A stretch of 64,000 nucleotides of DNA, from NCBI GenBank assembly GCA_015689645.1, contig WVSM01000003.1:248001-312000 (forward strand), read 5' to 3'. Under the pieces are notes generated by a model, which was not told the origin of the DNA, made no database searches, and saw nothing but the letters and a program-made list of their open reading frames with translations. Below are positions 33,242-43,461 of the stretch, one piece after another; position 1 is the stretch's first letter, and each line of letters opens with the position of its first letter. The translations under genes were made by a program, and so were the position numbers. This DNA comes from Rhodobacterales bacterium HKCCE4037 (GTDB taxonomy: Bacteria > Pseudomonadota > Alphaproteobacteria > Rhodobacterales > Rhodobacteraceae).

Positions 33242-33997
33242 TCATGGACCGGATTGTTCGCCCGGTGCCTTGCCGAGGATGATCATGCCGAGCAGTTCGT
33301 CATCGGTCACGTCGGCGACGTTCACCGTGCCGACAAGCTGACCGTTCTTCATCACGCTCGCGCGGTCGCACAGGTTCATGACCTGGTGCACGTCATGGTC
33401 GATCAGGAAGATGCCGATGCCTTCCTTCTTCAACTGTTCGATCAACTCGGCCACCATTTTTGTCTCTTGCGGCCCAAGCGCCGCCGTGGGCTCGTCCATG
33501 ATCAGGATGCGGGCATCGAAATAGACGGCTCGGGCGATGGCAACGGATTGGCGTTGACCACCCGAAAGGGCCGAAACCGGCGCGTTGAATTTCTGGAAGT
33601 TCGGGTTGAGGCGCGCCATGATCTTGCGTGTCTCGGCCTCCATCGCGGCGTCGTCGATGAAGCCCAGGGGTGTCACCAGCTCGCGCCCGAGGAACAGGTT
33701 GGACGCGGCGTCGAGGTTATCGGCCAGGGCGAGCGTCTGGTAGATCGTCTCGATATTGTACTTCCGGGCATCACGGGGCGATTGGATGAAAGCTTTTTCG
33801 CCGTTGATGTAGATCTCGCCACTGTCGGGCGTGTAGGCGCCCGAGAGCATCTTGATCAGCGTGGATTTCCCGGCGCCGTTGTGGCCGAGGAGGCCGACGA
33901 CTTCACCCGGGTAGAGATCGACCGAGACGTCATCGACCGCGTGGATGCCGCCGAACGAGATCGACATGTTGCGCATTTCGACCAATGGCGTGTTCAT
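33242..33997 (-). CDS. xylG: Xylose ABC transporter ATP-binding protein
   Basis: The ATG at 33997, one base upstream of the xylH stop region, gives [21 protein letters not shown]. The 251 residues hold one ATPase domain only: Walker [10 protein letters not shown], signature LSGGQRQ, Walker [14 protein letters not shown], switch His in LIDHD. E. coli XylG has two ATPase halves (about 510 residues), so this belongs to the single-domain type found in alphaproteobacterial sugar transporters, presumably working as a homodimer with XylH. Confidence 0.9.
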
Positions 33998-33998
33998 G

Positions 33999-35297
33999 TC
34001 ACTTTGCCCCCATGCGCTTGCGGTAGAGAATGTCGAGGAACACCGCCAGCACCAGCACGGCACCCACGACGATGTTTTGATACGGTGTCGGGGTGCCGAT
34101 CATTGCCATGCCCGATTGCAGGCTCTGCATGATCAGCGCGCCGAGAATGGCGCCGAAGATCGTTCCGGCGCCACCGGACAGGGCCGTTCCGCCGATGACC
34201 GCGGCGGCAATCACGCGCAGCTCGTCCAACGTGCCGATATCGTTGGTGTGGTTCGCCAGCCGGGCCGATGCGACCACTGCCGAGAGGGCGCAGAGCGCCC
34301 CCATGATGGCGAAGATCTTCACGGTCAGCAGGCGGGTGTTGATACCGGACAGCTCCGCCGCGTCAGGATTGCCGCCCGTGGCGAAGATGTAGCGGCCCAG
34401 ACGCGTGCGCTTGGCCACGATGGTCATGCAGATCGCAACCGCGATCAGGACAAAGACCGAGACCGGAAGGCCGTAGGCCTCGGTATATCCCTCGGGCATG
34501 ATCTCGCCGCGATCCTCGAACATGCGCTCTAGCCTGCGTTCGGGGATGAGGTAGGAATTCAGGACCCAGATGAAGCCCATGATGACCGCCACGGCGAGCG
34601 CGGACAGCACGGCCTCTGCCCAGACCGGTTTGACGGGGAAGTCATGGCTCAACTTGGCGCGGCGCGACGACCACATGCCGGCGACGGCGGCGAGCGCAAG
34701 GACCGCGCCGATGATCCACGACGCCGTGGAGCCAAGCGTGCCGTTGGTGCCGCCGAAAATCAGGAAGACGGGGTCGAGCGGCCCGATGGTCTGGCCGTTC
34801 GTCAGGAACCACGCCACGTTGCGCCAGACGAGGAAGCCGCCAAGCGTCACGATGAAGGCCGGGATCGTCAGGTAACCGATCATCCAGCCCTGGAAGGCGC
34901 CGATCATCGTGCCCGCGATCAGGCCCACGATGATTGTGATCACGCCTGTCATCGGGTGGTTGAGGCCCAGTCCCATCATGTCCGGCAGGATCTCGGTCTG
35001 GGTCATGGCCATGATGGCCGAGCAGGTCGCCAGAAGCGCGCCGACAGACAGGTCGATGTGGCGGTTGACGATCACGAAGACCATGCCGCAGGCCATGATG
35101 GCGACGGAGACCGTCTGGATCGTCAGGTTGAAGATATTGCGCGGGGTCAGGAAGCGGCCATCGGTCAGGATATTGAACCCGATGCACAGGATCACGAAGG
35201 CGGCCACCATGCCCAACAGGCGCGTGTCCAGCTCCAGCTGCTGAAACGGCGTTCGTCGCGGTTTTGGACGGCTGGCGGCAATCGTGGGCTCGGTCAT
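33999..35297 (-). CDS. xylH: Xylose ABC transporter permease
   Basis: The 432-residue membrane protein carries the carbohydrate-uptake-2 permease motif: [67 protein letters not shown] and [24 protein letters not shown]. The length and the insert between helices are as in XylH rather than RbsC. It ends one base before the xylG start and begins 114 bases after xylF, with stem-loops in that gap. Confidence 0.92.
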
Positions 35298-35411: not shown

Positions 35412-36440
35412 TCAGTTACAGGGCGCCGGACCGTCGGTCACACCCTGGCACAGGGCGTCGAGTTCGATCCAGCCTGCGTCCACGACAACCGACAGGTTCT
35501 CGGCCGTGATCGGCACAGGCGTCAGGAACATGGATGTCATCGTCGTGCCACCGGGCGAGGTCCATTCGACAGCGCCCTCGATATCCGACATCGCGGTCCC
35601 GTTGGCCAGGGCCACGGCGATTTCTGCCGCTGCAGTGCCCAGATCGCGGGCATCCTTCCAGACGGACACGGTCTGCGTGCCAAGGGCCACACGGTTGAGG
35701 GCCGCATGGTCGCCGTCCTGCCCGGAAACAGGAATGCCATCCATGCCCTGCGCGGCCAGTGCCGCAACCACACCGCCGGCCGTGCCGTCGTTGGAGGCCA
35801 CGACGGCGTCAACTTCGTTGTCCACCGCGGTCAGGATCTGTTCCATGTTGCGCTGCGCGTTCGCGGGCAGCCAGCCATCGGTATAGGCCTCGCCCACGAT
35901 GGTGATCGCGCCGGAGGCGACGGCCTCGGCAAGGATCTCATCCTGGCCGCCGCGCAGGAAATCGGCGTTCGGATCGGTCGGCGAGCCCATGATCATCACG
36001 TAATTGCCCTCGGGCTGAGCCGCGAAGACCTCGCGCGCCTGCATACGGCCAACCTCGACGTTGTCGAAGGTCAGGTAGAACGCGCGCTCGTCTTCGATCA
36101 GGCGGTCATAGGCGATCACGGGAATGCCCTCGTCAGCGGCAAGCTGCACGGCCGGACCAATCGCGGCGGCGTCCTGCGCAAGGATGATCAGCGCATCGAC
36201 ACCCTGGGCGATCAGGCTCTCAACGTCAGAGAGCTGGCGCGAGGCCGAGGATTGTGCGTCCGCGGACAGGTATTCCGCACCGGCGGCTTCGAGGGCTGCG
36301 ACGATCGCTGCCTCGTCGGTTTGCCAGCGCTCCTCCTGGAAGTTGGACCAGCTGACGCCAACGGTGATGTCCTGGGCCATGGCCGCAGTCGACATCGTCG
36401 CCGCAAGCGCACCTGCGGCCATGAGTTTGATGAATTTCAT
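35412..36440 (-). CDS. xylF: D-xylose ABC transporter substrate-binding protein
   Basis: Periplasmic type-1 sugar-binding protein. It has a signal peptide (MKFIKLMAAGALAATMSTAAMAQ), then ITVGVSWSNFQEERWQTDE, DALIILAQDAAAIGPAVQLAADEGIPVIAYDRLI and DAVVASNDGTAGGVVAAL, as in XylF. Length 342 residues. GGGAGGAAC precedes the ATG. It is first in the xylFHG operon and faces the divergent regulator across a 152-base region with operator-like repeats. Confidence 0.94.
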   Translation of the reverse strand: MKFIKLMAAGALAATMSTAAMAQDITVGVSWSNFQEERWQTDEAAIVAALEAAGAEYLSADAQSSASRQLSDVESLIAQGVDALIILAQDAAAIGPAVQLAADEGIPVIAYDRLIEDERAFYLTFDNVEVGRMQAREVFAAQPEGNYVMIMGSPTDPNADFLRGGQDEILAEAVASGAITIVGEAYTDGWLPANAQRNMEQILTAVDNEVDAVVASNDGTAGGVVAALAAQGMDGIPVSGQDGDHAALNRVALGTQTVSVWKDARDLGTAAAEIAVALANGTAMSDIEGAVEWTSPGGTTMTSMFLTPVPITAENLSVVVDAGWIELDALCQGVTDGPAPCN

Positions 36441-36508: not shown

Positions 36509-36594
36509 TTTTTTTGGATATCAAATTAAATCGGGGGCGCGGCCTGCGCGGGCGCTGATCGCAGTTGCGCATTTAATTTTGTTAGGGAAATAAT
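36509..36594. promoter_or_regulatory. Divergent xylF/xylR promoter with candidate XylR operators
   Basis: ATTTAATTT occurs on the minus strand at 36531-36523 and again on the plus strand at 36571-36579, so the pair forms an inverted repeat. Each copy is followed after 7-8 bases by an A-rich block: AAAAAAA at 36515-36509 and AAATAAT at 36588-36594, the latter touching the xylR start. A related AT-rich element precedes xylB. Such dyads fit ROK-type xylose repressors. Confidence 0.6.
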
Positions 36595-37822
36595 GGGCAT
36601 GCCAAAGGATCGCATCACGCATTTCGAGACCTCCGTGCAGTCGCAGGATCCGCGCGAGGGCAACCGCCAACAGATATTCGAGGCGATCCGCCAAGCGGGT
36701 CGAATCGCGCGTATAGACATTGCGAAGATTGCCCAGGTCAGCCCGGCAACCGTCACGGCGGTCGCGACCGAATTGCTGACGGCGGGCCTGATCGAGGAAG
36801 TCGAGCCGGATGGCGATACGGAGCAGGTCAGGCGGGGTCGTCCGCGGGTGTCCCTGAAGATCCGCGGTGACGCGCATCTGATCGCGGGCATGAAAATCGC
36901 CGACCGGCATATTACTGCGATCCTCGTCGATTTCGAGGGCACGACGCTCGCCGATCACACGCTTCCCATCGTCTCGGCGCCCCTGCCGGCAGCAGAGATC
37001 ACGGCCTTGGTCCGGCAGACGCTGACCGCGCTATGCGCCAAGGCGGGCCGTGCGTTGGAGGAGCTTGCGGGCGTTGGCCTGGGGATGGCCGGTCTGGTCG
37101 ATGCGACCCGCAACTTCGTCTATTGGTCACCGTCCCTCGATCAGCGCAACGTCGAGATCGGCGCGGCGCTGGAAGCCGATATGCCGTTTCCCTTCTTCCT
37201 CGACAACGACGCCAACCTCGTTGCCAAGGCCGAGCAATTGTTCGGCAAGGGCCGCGATGCGTCGGATTTCATCGTCATCACGATCGAACAGGGCGTGGGC
37301 ATGGGGATCGTCATCGACAACCGCATCTATCGCGGCGGGCGCGGATGCGGGGCGGAGTTCGGGCATACCAAGGTGCAGCTGGACGGCGCGATGTGCCGTT
37401 GCGGGCAGCGCGGATGTCTGGAGGCCTACGTGGGGGACTATGCCTTGCTTCGGGAGGCCGCCGTTCACGGACACAAGGGCGACCTTGCCGCGCTTTATGC
37501 GCGGGCCAAGGACGGCGACAAGCTGGCGAAATCCATTTTCGACCGCGCGGGGCGCATGTTCGCCATGGGCCTCGTGAACGTCATCAATTTCTTCGACCCC
37601 GGGCTGGTGATCCTGTCGGGCGAACAGATGGCGCTCGACTTCCTCTACGAGAAGGAGGTGCTGGAAAAGGTTCAGGCGTCGGTGGTTCAGGTGGACGCGC
37701 CGCTGCCGGAAATCCAGGTGCACAAGTGGGGCGACCTGATGTGGGCGAAGGGCGCCGCTGCCTATGCGATCGAGGCGGTGTCGACCCAGACGATCCGGAA
37801 GATGGCACGTAATGCGGCTTGA
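36593..37822 (+). CDS. xylR: ROK-family transcriptional regulator of xylose genes
   Basis: The 409-residue protein has an N-terminal winged helix (REGNRQQIFEAIRQAGRIARIDIAKIAQVSPATVTAVATELL) and a C-terminal ROK sugar-kinase-like domain. It shows the zinc-site cysteines C268, C270 and C275 in GAMCRCGQRGCLEAY and the upstream His in AEFGHTKV. ROK XylR proteins repress xyl genes until xylose binds. Its position between xylFHG and xylBA, with dyads in its own promoter, supports this. The end overlaps the next gene by 11 bases. Confidence 0.9.
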   Translation: MGMPKDRITHFETSVQSQDPREGNRQQIFEAIRQAGRIARIDIAKIAQVSPATVTAVATELLTAGLIEEVEPDGDTEQVRRGRPRVSLKIRGDAHLIAGMKIADRHITAILVDFEGTTLADHTLPIVSAPLPAAEITALVRQTLTALCAKAGRALEELAGVGLGMAGLVDATRNFVYWSPSLDQRNVEIGAALEADMPFPFFLDNDANLVAKAEQLFGKGRDASDFIVITIEQGVGMGIVIDNRIYRGGRGCGAEFGHTKVQLDGAMCRCGQRGCLEAYVGDYALLREAAVHGHKGDLAALYARAKDGDKLAKSIFDRAGRMFAMGLVNVINFFDPGLVILSGEQMALDFLYEKEVLEKVQASVVQVDAPLPEIQVHKWGDLMWAKGAAAYAIEAVSTQTIRKMARNAA

Positions 37823-39314
37823 GGTTCTTGTGTGTCTGGTCGCGGCGACGCCGCTTGCCGCCGAGCCGCTGTTCGCGCCGGTGGAGGTGCCATTTCATAC
37901 TTACGAGGGCGGATGGGAGCATTTCGTGGGTGGCGGGGTGGCGACGTTCGATTGTTCGGGCGACGGTTTGCCCGAGGTGTTCGCGGCCGGCGGCTCCAAC
38001 CCGTCGCAACTTTTTCTGAACCAATCCCGGCCCGACGAGGACATCACCTTCAGCCCATTGCCAGCCTTGGCGATAACCGGCGTGATCGGCGCCTACCCCC
38101 TCGACATCGACAGCGATGGCATACTGGATCTCGCGATCCTGCGGGTTGGTGAAAACCAGCTGATGCGCGGGCTGGGAGAGTGCCGGTTCGCCGAGTTCGA
38201 CTCGCTCGGGTTCCAGACCGATGACCGTTGGACCACGGCCTTTTCGGCCACGTGGGAGGATGGCGCGACCCTGCCCACCCTCGCATTCGGCAATTACGTG
38301 GACCGGACCGACCCCGACGGGCCGTTCGGCACCTGTGACACCAACCTGCTTTATCGGCCCGAGGGCGAAACCTACGCGCCCCCGATCGCGCTGGAGCCCG
38401 GGTTCTGCGCCCTTTCGATGCTGTTCAGCGACTGGGGCCGCCTGGGGCGCGCTGACCTGCGCGTCTCCAACGACCGCCATTACTATGTGCGCGGCGGGGA
38501 AGAGCAGATGTGGGCCATGGAGGCGGCGCCACGCCTTTTCGATGAACGCGACGGGTGGAACAGCCACCAGCTCTGGGGCATGGGAATTGCGTCACGCGAT
38601 CTGGATGGTGACGGTTTGGCGGAAGTGATGCTGACGTCCATGGGCGACCAGCGCCTGCAGGTTCTGGACGGCGACGGCCCCGGCTTCGTCGACGTGAGGT
38701 TCGAGCGCGGCACCACCGCACACCGGCCCTACACTGGCGGCGACGGGCGTCCCTCCACCGGCTGGCATGCCGCCTTCGGGGATGTGGACAACGACGGGTT
38801 CGAAGACCTTTTCATGACCAAGGGTAATGTCGAGCAGATGCCCGGCAGCGCCATGGACGACCCGAACAACCTGTTGATGGGGAGCGCGGACGGCACCTTT
38901 TCGGAGGCCGGTCTTGAGGCCGGCGTCGCCTCGCTGCACCGCGGTCGCGGCGGTGCGTTGGTTGACCTGAACGGCGACGGATTGCTGGATATCGTCGTGG
39001 TCAATCGCCACGCGCCGATGGAGGTTTTTCGGAACGTCAGCACCGATACGGGTGCGTGGCTGGCCGTCGACGTCGCCCAAGCTGGCGCCAACCCCTTCGC
39101 GGTCGGCGCATTTGTCGAGTTGCGGGCGGAGGGTCGACTCTGGACGCAGGAAATCACCGTTGGGGGTGGCCATGCCGGCGGCAGCGCGGGACCGTTGCAT
39201 TTCGGCCTTGGCACCCCCGATACGGTCGAGGCCCGCGTGATCTGGCCGGATGGCGAAGCGACGGACTGGGCCGAAGTTTCAGTCAATCAGCGCACGACGC
39301 TAAGCCGCGATTAG
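37812..39314 (+). CDS. Secreted FG-GAP/VCBS-repeat protein, CRTAC1-like
   Basis: The ATG at 37812 lies inside the xylR end and begins a signal peptide (MRLEVLVCLVAATPLAAEPL). The 500-residue product contains several calcium-binding FG-GAP-type blades: DCSGDGLPEV, DIDSDGILDLAIL, DLDGDGLAEVML, DVDNDGFEDLFM, DLNGDGLLDIVVV. It then has a C-terminal ASPIC/UnbV-like domain (GAFVELRAEGRLWTQEITVGGGHAGGSAGPLHFGLG...VIWPDG). It should be a periplasmic beta-propeller. About a dozen Trp residues are present. Its end overlaps the convergent MauG-like gene by four bases. The role in xylose metabolism is unknown. Confidence 0.85.
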   Translation: MRLEVLVCLVAATPLAAEPLFAPVEVPFHTYEGGWEHFVGGGVATFDCSGDGLPEVFAAGGSNPSQLFLNQSRPDEDITFSPLPALAITGVIGAYPLDIDSDGILDLAILRVGENQLMRGLGECRFAEFDSLGFQTDDRWTTAFSATWEDGATLPTLAFGNYVDRTDPDGPFGTCDTNLLYRPEGETYAPPIALEPGFCALSMLFSDWGRLGRADLRVSNDRHYYVRGGEEQMWAMEAAPRLFDERDGWNSHQLWGMGIASRDLDGDGLAEVMLTSMGDQRLQVLDGDGPGFVDVRFERGTTAHRPYTGGDGRPSTGWHAAFGDVDNDGFEDLFMTKGNVEQMPGSAMDDPNNLLMGSADGTFSEAGLEAGVASLHRGRGGALVDLNGDGLLDIVVVNRHAPMEVFRNVSTDTGAWLAVDVAQAGANPFAVGAFVELRAEGRLWTQEITVGGGHAGGSAGPLHFGLGTPDTVEARVIWPDGEATDWAEVSVNQRTTLSRD

Positions 39315-40636
39315 CGCGGGACGGTCAGACCACTGGGGACCGCGTCGGGAATTCCGAGGCGTCCGGAAAGCGATGTCTCATCCGTCAGGGCATTCAGGAA
39401 GGCTATCAGGTCGGCGATCTGTGCGTCGGTCAGGTCGGATGGCTGCAATTCGTTGGCGGCGGCAATCGCGGCCAGCACTTCGGGATCATCCATCACGCGC
39501 CAATCCCGCGCGCCGGGCAGGTCGGGCAGCAGAACCTGGGTTCGGTCATACGCATGAAGCGCGGCCACGGGGTCGAGATGGTGCCGGATGACGCCTTCCA
39601 AAGTCGCGTAGGCACCTGAGTGGCCGTAGGGCGCCGTGCGGGCGACGTTGCGCAGGGACGGTGTTCGGAACGCATAGGCATCGGCCGGGTCTCCGGTGAC
39701 GTGCATGCGCCCCTCGTCCAGCGCATGATCTTCGAACCGCGCGGCCTTGCCCGGGCCCAGTTGCGGCATGGCGATCGCGTGAAAGTCGTGGTCGGTCTGA
39801 AACCGGCCCGCATGGCACGCCGCGCATCCCGCATCGCCATAGAACAGGTCCATGCCCCGCATCGCCTCATCGCTGAGGGTTCCCCCTTCGAGGTAGCGAT
39901 CGAACGGGCTATCGTCGGCGCGCCATTCGGCGATGATGAACTCGGCCACCATGTCCGAGATCGCGGTGAAGGTGATCTCAGCGTCGGCACCGAGCACCGC
40001 ATCGAAGCGCGTACGATACCCGGGAACCGCCGCGACACGGGCCGCGATCTGGTCCCACGCCCCGCCTGGAAGCGAAAGCTGCCCCAGGCGCACGCTTTGG
40101 CCGATCGGGTTCTCGGAATAATGCCCGGCCATTTCATCGGGGGACAGGACCGGGAACATCGCCTGCGCCGACAGGACCGAGGCAAAGCCTTCGGCCATCG
40201 CGTCCCCCAGCGGGGTGCGGATGCCGTTGGGGCGAGTGGCATCCGCCTCCAATCGCCCATCGTGAAACATCACGGAGAACTCTTCCGCGCCAAGGTTGAA
40301 CAGCGCGGGCGAATTGCGCGGAATGCGTTGCTCCGGCAGGTTGTCGGGGTCTATCACGCGGTCCGGGCCGAGGCCCACGCCGCCATCGCCCAACCCGAGC
40401 GATACCCCGTCAGACGTGGCAAAGCGCGGATGATGACACGTTGCACAGGCCACGGTTTGGCTGCCCGACAGGATGGGGTCGTAGAACAGAAGCTGCCCCA
40501 GGGCGACCCGGTCAGGATCGACCTCCGCAAAGTTGGGCGGATCGAAAGTGAGGGGAAGGTCGGACATATCCGCCAGAAGCGGCAGCGGCAGAAGGGCCAG
40601 CGCCGCCCAACGGAACGGATGCCCCCACCGCGCCAT
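39311..40636 (-). CDS. Di-heme cytochrome c peroxidase/MauG-like protein
   Basis: A signal peptide is followed by two c-type heme sites, CATCH at 64-68 and CAACH at 271-275, in a 441-residue protein of the bacterial cytochrome c peroxidase/MauG superfamily. VALGQLLFYDPILSGSQTVAC, IPRNSPALFN and FRTPSLRNVARTAPYGHSG are family signatures. Members reduce peroxide or oxidise amino acids in a partner protein. The start codon follows the xylA stop with no gap, so it is the third gene of xylB-xylA. Confidence 0.9.
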   Translation of the reverse strand: MARWGHPFRWAALALLPLPLLADMSDLPLTFDPPNFAEVDPDRVALGQLLFYDPILSGSQTVACATCHHPRFATSDGVSLGLGDGGVGLGPDRVIDPDNLPEQRIPRNSPALFNLGAEEFSVMFHDGRLEADATRPNGIRTPLGDAMAEGFASVLSAQAMFPVLSPDEMAGHYSENPIGQSVRLGQLSLPGGAWDQIAARVAAVPGYRTRFDAVLGADAEITFTAISDMVAEFIIAEWRADDSPFDRYLEGGTLSDEAMRGMDLFYGDAGCAACHAGRFQTDHDFHAIAMPQLGPGKAARFEDHALDEGRMHVTGDPADAYAFRTPSLRNVARTAPYGHSGAYATLEGVIRHHLDPVAALHAYDRTQVLLPDLPGARDWRVMDDPEVLAAIAAANELQPSDLTDAQIADLIAFLNALTDETSLSGRLGIPDAVPSGLTVPR

Positions 40637-41950
40637 TCAGACGAACCGATTGACGACGTTTTCCAAGTATTCCTGGCGTCCCGAAACGGGTTTGGGTTGC
40701 GCATCCGTCGCCATGACTTTCGCCGCGATCTCTTCCAGCGAGCGTTCTCCGTTCAGCATGGCAACCGCTTCCGGGTCGTTCCATCCGGCATAGCGATCCG
40801 CAACGAATTGCGGCAAGGTGCCATCCTCGATCATCGCGGCTGCCGCCTTCAGGGCACGGGCACAGACATCCATACCGCCGATATGGGCGATCAGCAGATC
40901 GTCGGGCTCGATCGACTGCCGGCGCAACTTGGCATCGAAGTTCGTGCCTCCGGATTTGAAGCCACCGTCCTGCAGGATGTGGTAGTAGGCCAGCGCGACC
41001 TCGGGCACCGAATTGGGGAACTGGTCGGTATCCCAGCCCGATTGGTAATCGTTCCGGTTCATGTCGATGGAGCCGAAAATGCCAAGGGCCGTCGCCATTG
41101 CGATTTCATGCTCGAACGTGTGACCGGCAAGGATCGCGTGGCCCTGCTCGATATTGACGGTGACTTCGTCTTCCAGCCCGTGGCGCTTGAGGAACCCGTA
41201 GACCGTGGCCACGTCGTAATCATACTGGTGTTTGGACGGCTCCTGCGGCTTGGGTTCCACCATGATCTGGCCCTTGAAGCCGATCTTGTGCTTGTGCTCC
41301 ACCACCATGTTGAGGAAGCGGCCCATCTGCGCGTCTTCTTGTGCAAGATTGGTGTTGAGAAGCGTTTCATAGCCCTCTCGCCCGCCCCAAAGGACGTAGT
41401 TCTCGCCGTCAAGGCGATGCGTGGCCTCAAGGCAGGATTTCACCAGCGCGGCGGCGTAAGCGAAGATCTCCGGATCCGGGTTGGTGGCCGCACCTGCGGC
41501 GAAGCGCCGGTTGCCGGTCAGGTTCGCGGTGCCCCACAGTAGCTTCACGCCCGTCTCGGACATCTTTCCTTCGAAGTAATCGCAAATCGCCATCAGGTCG
41601 CGATGGTTGTCGGCGTAGCTGTCCTGATCGGGGCGCACGTCGAAATCATGGAAGCAGAAGTACGGTACGCCGAGGGCCGCGAACATCTCGAACGCCACGT
41701 CGGCCTTCTGGCGGGCAAGGTCCATTGTGTCGGCCGGGAACCACGGGCGCTGGAAGGTCTCGCCGCCAAAGGGGTCCGTGCCGGGCCAGACGAAATTGTG
41801 CCAGTAGCACACGGCGAACCGCAGATGATCCTCCAGCCGCTTGCCCATGACCATCTCATCCGGGTCGTAGTGCCGAAACGCAAGGGGGTTGCTGCTGTCG
41901 GGGCCCTCGAACGGGATCTTGCCGATATCTCCGAAAAAGCCGGTACTCAT
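40637..41950 (-). CDS. xylA: Xylose isomerase
   Basis: Interconverts xylose and xylulose in the cytoplasm. The 437 residues carry the catalytic [10 protein letters not shown] (active-site His and metal ligands), [47 protein letters not shown] and [17 protein letters not shown], as in the long class II enzymes. The start overlaps the xylB stop as ATGA. Confidence 0.97.
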
Positions 41951-43398
41951 GTCAGGGCTGCCTTGATGCTGGGGTAAAGAGCGCGGTAGCGCCCGTATCG
42001 GGTTTCAAACTGCTCGGTCAGATCGGCGCGGGGCTCGATCGTTTCCGCAATGGCGGGTCGGGTCATGATGTCGTTCGGCGCCAGACCTGTGGCGGCCATG
42101 CCAAGGCGGGCCGCCCCCATTGCCGCCCCGAATTCCCCATCGGCCGGGATCTGGAGGGGAAGGTTCAGCGCGGTGGCAAGGCTTTCCAGCCAGAACCGGG
42201 ACCGGGTGCCGCCACCGATGGCCAGCAGCGTGTCCAGTTGTGCCCCGGTCGCGCGAAGAGCTTGGAGCGAGTCCCGCTGCGAAAAGCAGACGCCTTCCAT
42301 GACGGCCCGGGTCAACGCCTCGGGCGTGGTCGCGATGTCGAGGCCGACGAAAGCGCCGCGCATGGCGGCATCGTTGTGCGGTGTCCGTTCGCCCGACAGA
42401 TAGGGCAGGAACAACACATCGGAGGGTTCGTCGATCTTGTCCGGCAGCGCGCTGGCCAGTGCTCGCGGTGTCGACCCCAAGGTTCGCGCAAGCCAGTTCA
42501 GGCAATCCGTTGCGGCCAGCGTCACGCCCATCTGGTACCACTTTCCCGGCACCGCGTGGCAGAACGTGTGCACGGCGGTTTCCGGGGCGGGCGCAAAGGA
42601 CTCCCGTGCGGCCAGCAGCACGCCCGACGTACCGAGCGAGACAAACCCCTCGCCCTCCTGCAGACAACCGACCCCGCACGCGGCGGCCGCGTTGTCGCCG
42701 CCGCCGCCCGCGACGATGACCGGATTGGACATGCCCCATTCCGAGCGCAGCTCGTCGCGCAGGGCACCCGATGCGTCGGTGCCCTCGACCAGATCCGGCA
42801 TCTGATCGCGCCGCATGTGCCCTGCATCGAGCAAGGCGTCCGACCAGTCCCGCGCTCCGACATCCAGCCAGGTAGTCCCGGCCGCGTCCGACATCTCGGC
42901 GACGTGCTCACCGGTCAGCCACAGCCTGAGGTAATCCTTGGGCAGCAGAACCTTGGCGATCCGCGCGAAAATCTCGGGCTCGTTCTCGTCCACCCAGAGC
43001 AATTTCGGCGCGGTGAAGCCGGGGAAAACGATATTGCCGGACAGCTCACGCACACGGGGCGTCGTGTCCAGTTCCTTCGCCTGCGGGGCAGAGCGTGTGT
43101 CATTCCATAGGATGCAGGGCCGCAGAACCTCATCATTTGCGTCCAGCAAGGTCGCGCCATGCATATGACCCGAAAGACCAATCGCGCGGGTCGCGGCAAG
43201 GGCAGGGCCGTGGGCCGCTCGAAGGCTGTCCATCGCGCGCCGGCAACTTGCGATCCAATCGGACGGGGTCTGCTCGCTCCATCCGGGTAAAGGATGTGCG
43301 ACGTCATGATCCGCCTCGGCGCTGCCGATCACTGCACCATCGCCGTCGACAAGGACAGCGCGAAGCCCGGATGTGCCAAGGTCCAATCCAAGAAACAC
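41947..43398 (-). CDS. xylB: Xylulokinase
   Basis: Phosphorylates xylulose to xylulose 5-phosphate, feeding the pentose phosphate pathway. The 483 residues show the FGGY-kinase N-terminal [18 protein letters not shown], the substrate loop [13 protein letters not shown], the FGGY signatures and the late ATP site [18 protein letters not shown]. The start is a GTG at 43398 with GGGAGG seven to eight bases upstream. It leads the xylB-xylA-MauG operon. Confidence 0.96.
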
Positions 43399-43429: not shown

Positions 43430-43461
43430 ATTAATTATTTTATGTATCGAAATAAAAATGG
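43430..43461 (-). promoter_or_regulatory. AT-rich operator-like element before xylB
   Basis: In this otherwise GC-rich DNA a 32-base AT-rich block holds ATTATTT and, nine bases on, AAATAAAAA, an imperfect dyad. It resembles the ATTTAATTT...AAATAAT elements in the xylF/xylR promoter and lies about 30-60 bases before the xylB start codon. Confidence 0.5.

Follow-up and report, generated by a model that had tools for sequence, protein, structure and literature searches.

A di-heme CCP_MauG-family protein and a CRTAC1-type propeller linked to a predicted xylose isomerase regulon in Rhodobacteraceae

MbnP is the copper-binding partner of the di-heme enzyme MbnH. The available sections of a paper on another such enzyme, BthA (PMC6405878, cited throughout to this extent), name a putative phosphatase as its partner and describe the CCP_MauG family as having uncharted parts. 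They place the peroxide-side residues of MauG at Q103, P107 and E113, and report that the BthA variant Y463H, like MauG Y294H, loses the near-infrared bis-Fe(IV) feature, that it still reduces H2O2, and that BthA reaches the bis-Fe(IV) state without an inter-heme Trp. Here we analysed a gene pair of Rhodobacterales bacterium HKCCE4037, in a stretch of 64,000 nucleotides (the window; contig WVSM01000003.1, positions 248,001 to 312,000), encoding a di-heme protein of the CCP_MauG family and an FG-GAP propeller of CRTAC1 type amid genes for xylose uptake and use. Our results suggest, with a probability of about one half, that the two are co-regulated within a regulon for glucose and xylose uptake and act as a pair in the periplasm, one as an oxidase that uses peroxide and the other as its partner propeller.

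The gene pair among the xylose genes

On the minus strand the window holds two groups, first xylG, xylH and xylF and then the di-heme gene with xylA and xylB; between them, on the plus strand, are the ROK regulator gene (xylR) and the FG-GAP gene. The first-pass annotation, made from the letters of the window, had described the two genes as built into this arrangement, and the coordinates bear it out. The di-heme ATG (40636-40634) directly follows the xylA stop, which ends at 40637, with a spacer of zero. The propeller ATG at 37812, in frame with a longer open reading frame (ORF; 37764-39314), lies within the end of xylR (36593-37822), an overlap of 11 nt. The 3' ends of the pair overlap by 4 nt, the propeller stop ending at 39314 on the plus strand and the di-heme ORF at 39311 on the minus strand. 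These junctions are identical in a second genome of the genus (L244). Both N termini resemble secretion signals by eye, again as had been noted. In the whole 3.84 Mb genome, the single match to CCP_MauG (E up to 0.001) is this di-heme protein and the single match to ASPIC_UnbV (E up to 1e-6) is this propeller. The features are listed below; the NCBIfam scan covered six of the window's proteins.

33242..34063, minus strand: xylG-type ATPase, start codon uncertain (named by sequence and position, no family-library scan)
33999..35297, minus strand: xylH-type permease (named by sequence and position, no family-library scan)
35412..36440, minus strand: xylF, sugar-binding protein of an ABC importer (passes its NCBIfam equivalog cut-off)
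36509..36530, no strand: operator-like palindrome in the xylF-xylR spacer (score 31.0; in the training set)
36573..36594, no strand: second operator-like site, at the xylR start and the end of the same spacer (score 23.5)
36593..37822, plus strand: ROK-family regulator, XylR-like by position (shares 11 nt with the propeller gene)
37812..39314, plus strand: CRTAC1-type FG-GAP propeller, 500 residues, C-terminal ASPIC_UnbV, apparent signal sequence
39311..40636, minus strand: di-heme CCP_MauG-family protein, 441 residues, apparent signal sequence
40637..41950, minus strand: xylA, xylose isomerase (passes its NCBIfam equivalog cut-off; the di-heme gene follows directly)
41947..43398, minus strand: xylB, xylulokinase, first gene of the xylB-xylA-di-heme operon (passes its NCBIfam equivalog cut-off)
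43435..43456, no strand: operator-like site, some 37 bp ahead of the xylB start (outside the training set; score 24.5)

With XylA, XylB and XylF above their equivalog cut-offs and an operator-like site in common, the locus is, by sequence, a xylose isomerase regulon. The sites were scored with a palindrome model (consensus TTAATTTTGATATCAAAATTAA) trained on 145 xylF-xylR spacers, the window's own included. The three best sites of the window (31.0, 24.5 and 23.5) head the xylF and xylR-propeller genes on one side and the xylB-xylA-di-heme operon on the other, and the next, unrelated site scores 11.3. At a threshold of 12, xylB has a site upstream in 70 of 125 loci, xylA in 5/119, the propeller gene in 5/182 and the di-heme gene in 3/158; scarcity before the latter three would be expected if these are mostly inner genes of operons. 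In the three di-heme cases (L083, L170 and L182) the site coincides with the di-heme start or lies a short way before it. The same threshold is passed by 29 of 1000 random 370-bp pieces, some of which may hold true sites. Both operons are likely to be co-regulated by the ROK regulator, to judge from these predicted sites; our literature searches found no expression data for these genes.

The tie to xylose genes proposed in the first-pass annotation extends well beyond one genome. We queried one genome from each of 198 genera of the family with three proteins, and found the propeller in 103, XylA in 125 and, among the matches listed and with paralogues included, the di-heme protein in 121. A cut at 483 bits, our own choice for excluding paralogues, leaves 78 di-heme genomes, 77 of which have the propeller and 77 XylA. 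The sole genome of this set lacking the propeller (G124) has its di-heme gene 1 kb from a contig start. Conversely, XylA is found in 98 of the 103 propeller genomes, and 27 of the 125 XylA genomes lack the propeller. Fisher tests on such counts ignore kinship and are descriptive only. Six genomes fall just below the cut, at 453-474 bits (G058, G165, G147, G192, G076 and G181): two have the pair side by side (G058 and G165, at loci L111 and L090), the G147 locus is truncated at a contig end, and G192 and G076 carry paralogues elsewhere (L160 and L161).

We then considered 102 propeller loci fetched from relatives, among which those at contig ends (L106, L110, L134, L142 and others) were kept. 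The di-heme gene lies on the fetched stretch in 71 of them, convergent with the propeller gene in 68; in L090 the two genes are co-directional with a 4-nt overlap, and in L093 and L102 they are a few kb apart. Of the convergent pairs, 22 overlap and 49 lie 62 bp or less apart. The xylR gene is on the propeller's strand in 80 loci, and in 59 of these the two genes share 11 or 4 nt, with start codons chosen by script. No partner was found in 15 of the 102 loci: seven belong to genomes with a di-heme protein of at least 499 bits elsewhere, three (L106, L110 and L134) are at contig ends, and L067, L139-L141 and L143 remain. A separate contig scan recovered the di-heme gene on the stretch in 73 of the best 80 propeller loci, a count that is not independent because it overlaps the family set (L168 and L043, for instance, are on contigs of equal length). 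Phaeobacter inhibens DSM 17395 carries the pair on plasmid pPGA1_262, flanked by an aldose epimerase gene on one side and ROK-xylF-permease-ATPase genes on the other; in Ruegeria sp. TM1040 the propeller gene adjoins xylR, with no di-heme gene next to it. A strain of Ruegeria pomeroyi (L186) has the pair as well, so R. pomeroyi DSS-3 probably does too. Co-occurrence with xyl genes, which had been put forward as a check, thus shows a pair kept across many genera, and together with the linkage and the operator-like sites it ties the pair to the xylose regulon.

Two variations of this layout deserve mention. In many relatives (L042, L043, L047 and others) an aldose-epimerase-like gene, absent from the window's cluster, lies between the di-heme gene and xylA. 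In L139, L140 and L141 the propeller gene is flanked by xylF and xylR, and no oxidase was found nearby.

The di-heme protein and the propeller

The di-heme protein has two CxxCH motifs (residues 64-68 and 271-275) and scores 112.8 bits against PF03150 (cut-off 25.6). These matches, the CCP fold of its AlphaFold2 model (pLDDT 89.1) and its Gln/Pro/Glu pocket make it a member of the CCP_MauG superfamily. The model is about equally close to a MauG-like copper-homeostasis protein (6e1c, Z 29.1), to a bacterial cytochrome c peroxidase (bCcP; 1iqc, Z 29.0) and to MauG (3rlm, Z 28.3). Its scores stay below the cut-offs of the NCBIfam models for MauG (TIGR03791, 125.1 bits against 443.85) and MbnH (TIGR04039, 125.1 against 362.85), and even of its best match, the His-Xaa-Ser-associated MauG-like family (TIGR03981, 262.4 against 340). 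The genome has no match to the MauG model at 1e-60.

The pocket residues Q158, P162 and E168, which correspond in alignment to Gln, Pro and Glu in MauG-like and bCcP-like proteins, are invariant in 61/61 di-heme sequences. The axial position is His (H353) in 61/61 sequences, in 71/72 of the family set and in 18/18 paralogues. It is Tyr in the MauG-like rows L255-L257, themselves below the MauG cut-off, and in the MbnH rows L260 and L262-L264 (L259, L261 and L265 were dropped from the alignment as wrong ORFs), and Met in the bCcP-like row L258, for which an alignment to 3o5c was also used. The position of the inter-heme Trp, present in L255-L257, is His125 in 61/61 sequences and in 66/72 of the family set. 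By these measures the protein does not class as a canonical bCcP, since H353 replaces the axial Met; nor as an MbnH, given its score and the missing axial Tyr; nor as a MauG, against which its score and the missing axial Tyr and inter-heme Trp all speak. From the axial His, the pocket and the behaviour of the BthA and MauG variants, one would therefore expect a peroxide-using enzyme rather than a long-range oxidiser of Trp of MauG type.

Paralogues of this protein occur in other gene contexts. Those of L148, L150, L151, L152, L156, L157 and L158, 43-48% identical, lie downstream of a TRAP DctP-like gene, named by eye except in L156, where models were applied. The L156 locus also has PfkB kinase, tagatose-bisphosphate-aldolase-like and sulfoquinovose-isomerase-like genes, and no propeller match. 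Another paralogue adjoins trmFO- and gluQ-like genes, also named by eye (L144, L145, L147, L153, L154, L160 and L161).

The propeller exceeds the cut-offs of FG-GAP_3 (PF13517, 78.9 against 26.9 bits) and ASPIC_UnbV (PF07593, 55.7 against 23.4), and the top match of its AlphaFold2 model (pLDDT 91.6) is murine CRTAC1 (9etn, Z 38.0 over 437 residues at 2.7 Å). Repeats, C-terminal domain and fold identify it as a bacterial CRTAC1. The NCBIfam scan gave it no family, and therefore nothing ties it to MbnP. It had been called Trp-rich, which holds in a mild sense, with 12 Trp in 500 residues. Four of these (W35, W140, W255 and W318) are invariant in 72/72 propellers encoded beside a di-heme gene. 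Propeller relatives (about 614 bits) occur at L252:2164-9693 and L253:1003-2685, the former convergent with an ABC operon that holds a solute-binding protein and an alpha-amylase-family gene.

Partner exchange and readings of function

The di-heme gene is not the only enzyme gene found beside the propeller. In 16 of the other 31 propeller loci a different one lies directly upstream, 14 vanadium-haloperoxidase-like and two DHOR di-heme, and two enzyme types never share a stretch (0/102). The 14 are PAP2/vanadium-haloperoxidase-like proteins of about 435 residues on the propeller's strand, with tblastn gaps of about -1 to 109 bp, and xylF is also present in three of their loci. All eight that were scanned with Pfam have PAP2 and vanadium-chloroperoxidase domains, the latter mostly below cut-off. 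In the seven checked for motifs, KxxxxxxRP and PSGH are always present; the third haloperoxidase motif, as written, occurs in 0/7, one sequence showing SR-x5-H without the final Asp. A plasmid protein 34.5% identical to this partner is annotated as a vanadium-dependent haloperoxidase. The DHOR-type di-heme gene of L137 and L138 (2/102) is on a stretch with xylF; the L137 protein, left out of the Pfam scan, is DHOR-like solely by its 58% identity to that of L138. Mapped on the propeller tree, partner labels change 14 times, against a mean of 29 in shuffles; partners are therefore largely inherited by clade.

Class-wide, the propeller was found in 14 of 385 genomes, nine of them outside the family. 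Three of the nine (L266, L267 and L271) have a DHOR gene directly upstream, two of them with xylFGH. In L266 (4488-15768) the DHOR-propeller-xylFHG operon adjoins an IlvD/EDD-type dehydratase gene and, named by eye, a sugar kinase gene and a KDPG-aldolase-like ORF; an aldonate route may replace XylA/XylB there. The propeller gene of L268, L270 and L272 is near other ABC transporter genes, a neighbourhood that L253 does not show; that of L273 is near xylAB at a contig end.

These observations fit the co-regulated pair that we favour. The di-heme protein, probably with a His/His heme, and its dedicated propeller would be made together with the XylFGH importer and XylAB. The enzyme would react with H2O2 at the N-terminal heme without forming the bis-Fe(IV) state of MauG, and would work with or on the propeller, which may serve as the docking or substrate-holding part of the pair. 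The most likely outcomes would be oxidation of something held by the propeller, or peroxide reduction while docked to it; the building of a Trp-derived cofactor in the propeller is less favoured. A broader scheme is possible, though on balance doubtful: a modular peroxide-driven system, in which one CRTAC1-type propeller works with interchangeable secreted oxidases (CCP-type, DHOR or vanadium haloperoxidase), would carry out a new periplasmic oxidation coupled to glucose and xylose uptake in Alphaproteobacteria.

Several points weigh against our reading. Outside the family, five of the nine propeller genomes lack an oxidase-query match on the stretch, among them L269, which has xylFGH, and one more is cut by a contig end. 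Within it, the propeller of L067 is linked to xyl genes, yet its genome has no di-heme protein at E 1e-40. Di-heme paralogues of 43-54% identity sit in loci without a propeller match (18/18 fetched), and all 18 share the axial His; this type of enzyme can accordingly work alone, and the residue does not set the xyl copy apart. The PAP2-type proteins might instead be phosphatases. Finally, the regulon may serve glucose too, because growth of a Ruegeria pomeroyi xylFGH mutant fell on both glucose and xylose; pooled random-barcode transposon sequencing in that species did not flag the xylFGH transporter for xylose (both from the available sections of PMC10130141).

The di-heme protein might be thought a plain peroxide defence that reduces H2O2 via cytochrome c, the propeller being an unrelated sugar- or surface-binding protein that shares the regulon. 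The complete peroxide pocket and bCcP fold suit this view, as do the sole CCP_MauG match in the genome and the paralogues in operons without a propeller. Yet a bystander would not be expected to have two other enzyme families in the place beside it, nor to accompany the di-heme protein in 77/78 genomes, even if shared ancestry inflates this figure, and we regard the explanation as unlikely.

More improbable still is the proposal of the first-pass annotation, in which a MauG-type maturase converts Trp or Tyr residues of the propeller into a cofactor and so yields a redox protein that handles sugar. Its premise that the pair belongs to the xylose regulon is supported, and the modelled fold, as near to MauG and the copper-homeostasis protein as to bCcP, the one dedicated partner gene with its four invariant Trp, and the bis-Fe(IV) state of BthA without an inter-heme Trp (PMC6405878) are consistent with the proposal. 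The oxidation of Trp itself is not supported: the model scores speak against it, as does the axial His found in 61/61 sequences, since replacing Tyr by His costs both MauG and BthA their bis-Fe(IV) signal (PMC6405878). Trp conservation does not follow partner type either. W35, W140 and W255 are kept in 14/14 propellers beside haloperoxidase-like genes, and W318 in 13/14, the single miss being a gap; the alignment has no Trp column kept only beside di-heme genes. The columns that do differ between the two sets include H37, H223 and Q280: H37 (68/72) and H223 (67/72) are typical beside di-heme genes and are replaced in all 14 haloperoxidase-linked propellers, although these are largely one clade, so that clade and partner are confounded.

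A conversion of periplasmic aldose to aldonolactone by the pair, with the propeller as sugar-binding part, is very improbable: sugar importer loci, the gene neighbourhood of L266 and a structural match to aldos-2-ulose dehydratase (4a7y, Z 24.6, root-mean-square deviation (rmsd) 4.0, 366 aligned residues) point that way, but 4a7y is just one of many propellers at similar Z, and many loci also encode XylA/XylB, which require unoxidised xylose.

Comparison with known systems

The exchange of oxidase-like types beside a constant propeller suggests a hitherto unstudied oxidation linked to sugar uptake, and the involvement of three enzyme families narrows their shared function, probably to oxidation with peroxide. 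The tight and apparently regulated tie to a textbook sugar pathway offers a testable setting for both proteins in tractable marine bacteria, and, with its natural His at the axial Tyr position, the enzyme is a naturally occurring parallel to the engineered variants MauG Y294H and BthA Y463H. Searches of the open-licence literature for CRTAC1 with MauG, CRTAC1 with haloperoxidase, and MauG with xylose isomerase returned nothing on this locus, and no biochemical role for bacterial CRTAC1-type proteins; the sole related find, a remark on CRTAC1 in the available sections of PMC12758564 (cited below to this extent), concerns other operons.

These are hydrazine-synthase-like operons, in which a MauG-like di-heme homologue of the gamma-subunit lies beside an FG-GAP gene of the CRTAC1 family (PMC12758564). 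Hydrazine synthase gamma itself shares the His at the inter-heme Trp position. The operons differ from ours in belonging to other lineages, in having further subunits, in keeping Trp at that position in clades I-III, and in lacking a sugar regulon (PMC12758564). Animal CRTAC1 (PDB 9etn) shares the fold of the propeller (437 residues, Z 38.0, rmsd 2.7) with 21% identity over aligned residues, whereas the bacterial form is linked with genes for sugar importers and oxidase-like proteins.

Among the enzymes, MbnH/MbnP and BthA/phosA similarly link a CCP_MauG-type enzyme to one partner gene, but have an axial Tyr and no CRTAC1 propeller as partner. The bCcP proteins share the fold (Z 28-29), the peroxide pocket and apparent secretion; our protein differs in having His353 for the axial Met and His125 for the inter-heme Trp, a fixed protein neighbour and a place in a sugar regulon. 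MauG and pre-methylamine dehydrogenase resemble our pair in the di-heme CCP fold, the Gln/Pro/Glu peroxide pocket and a dedicated partner protein, from which ours departs by a score of 125 against a cut-off of 444, by an axial His for Tyr, by the replaced inter-heme Trp and by its xyl locus.

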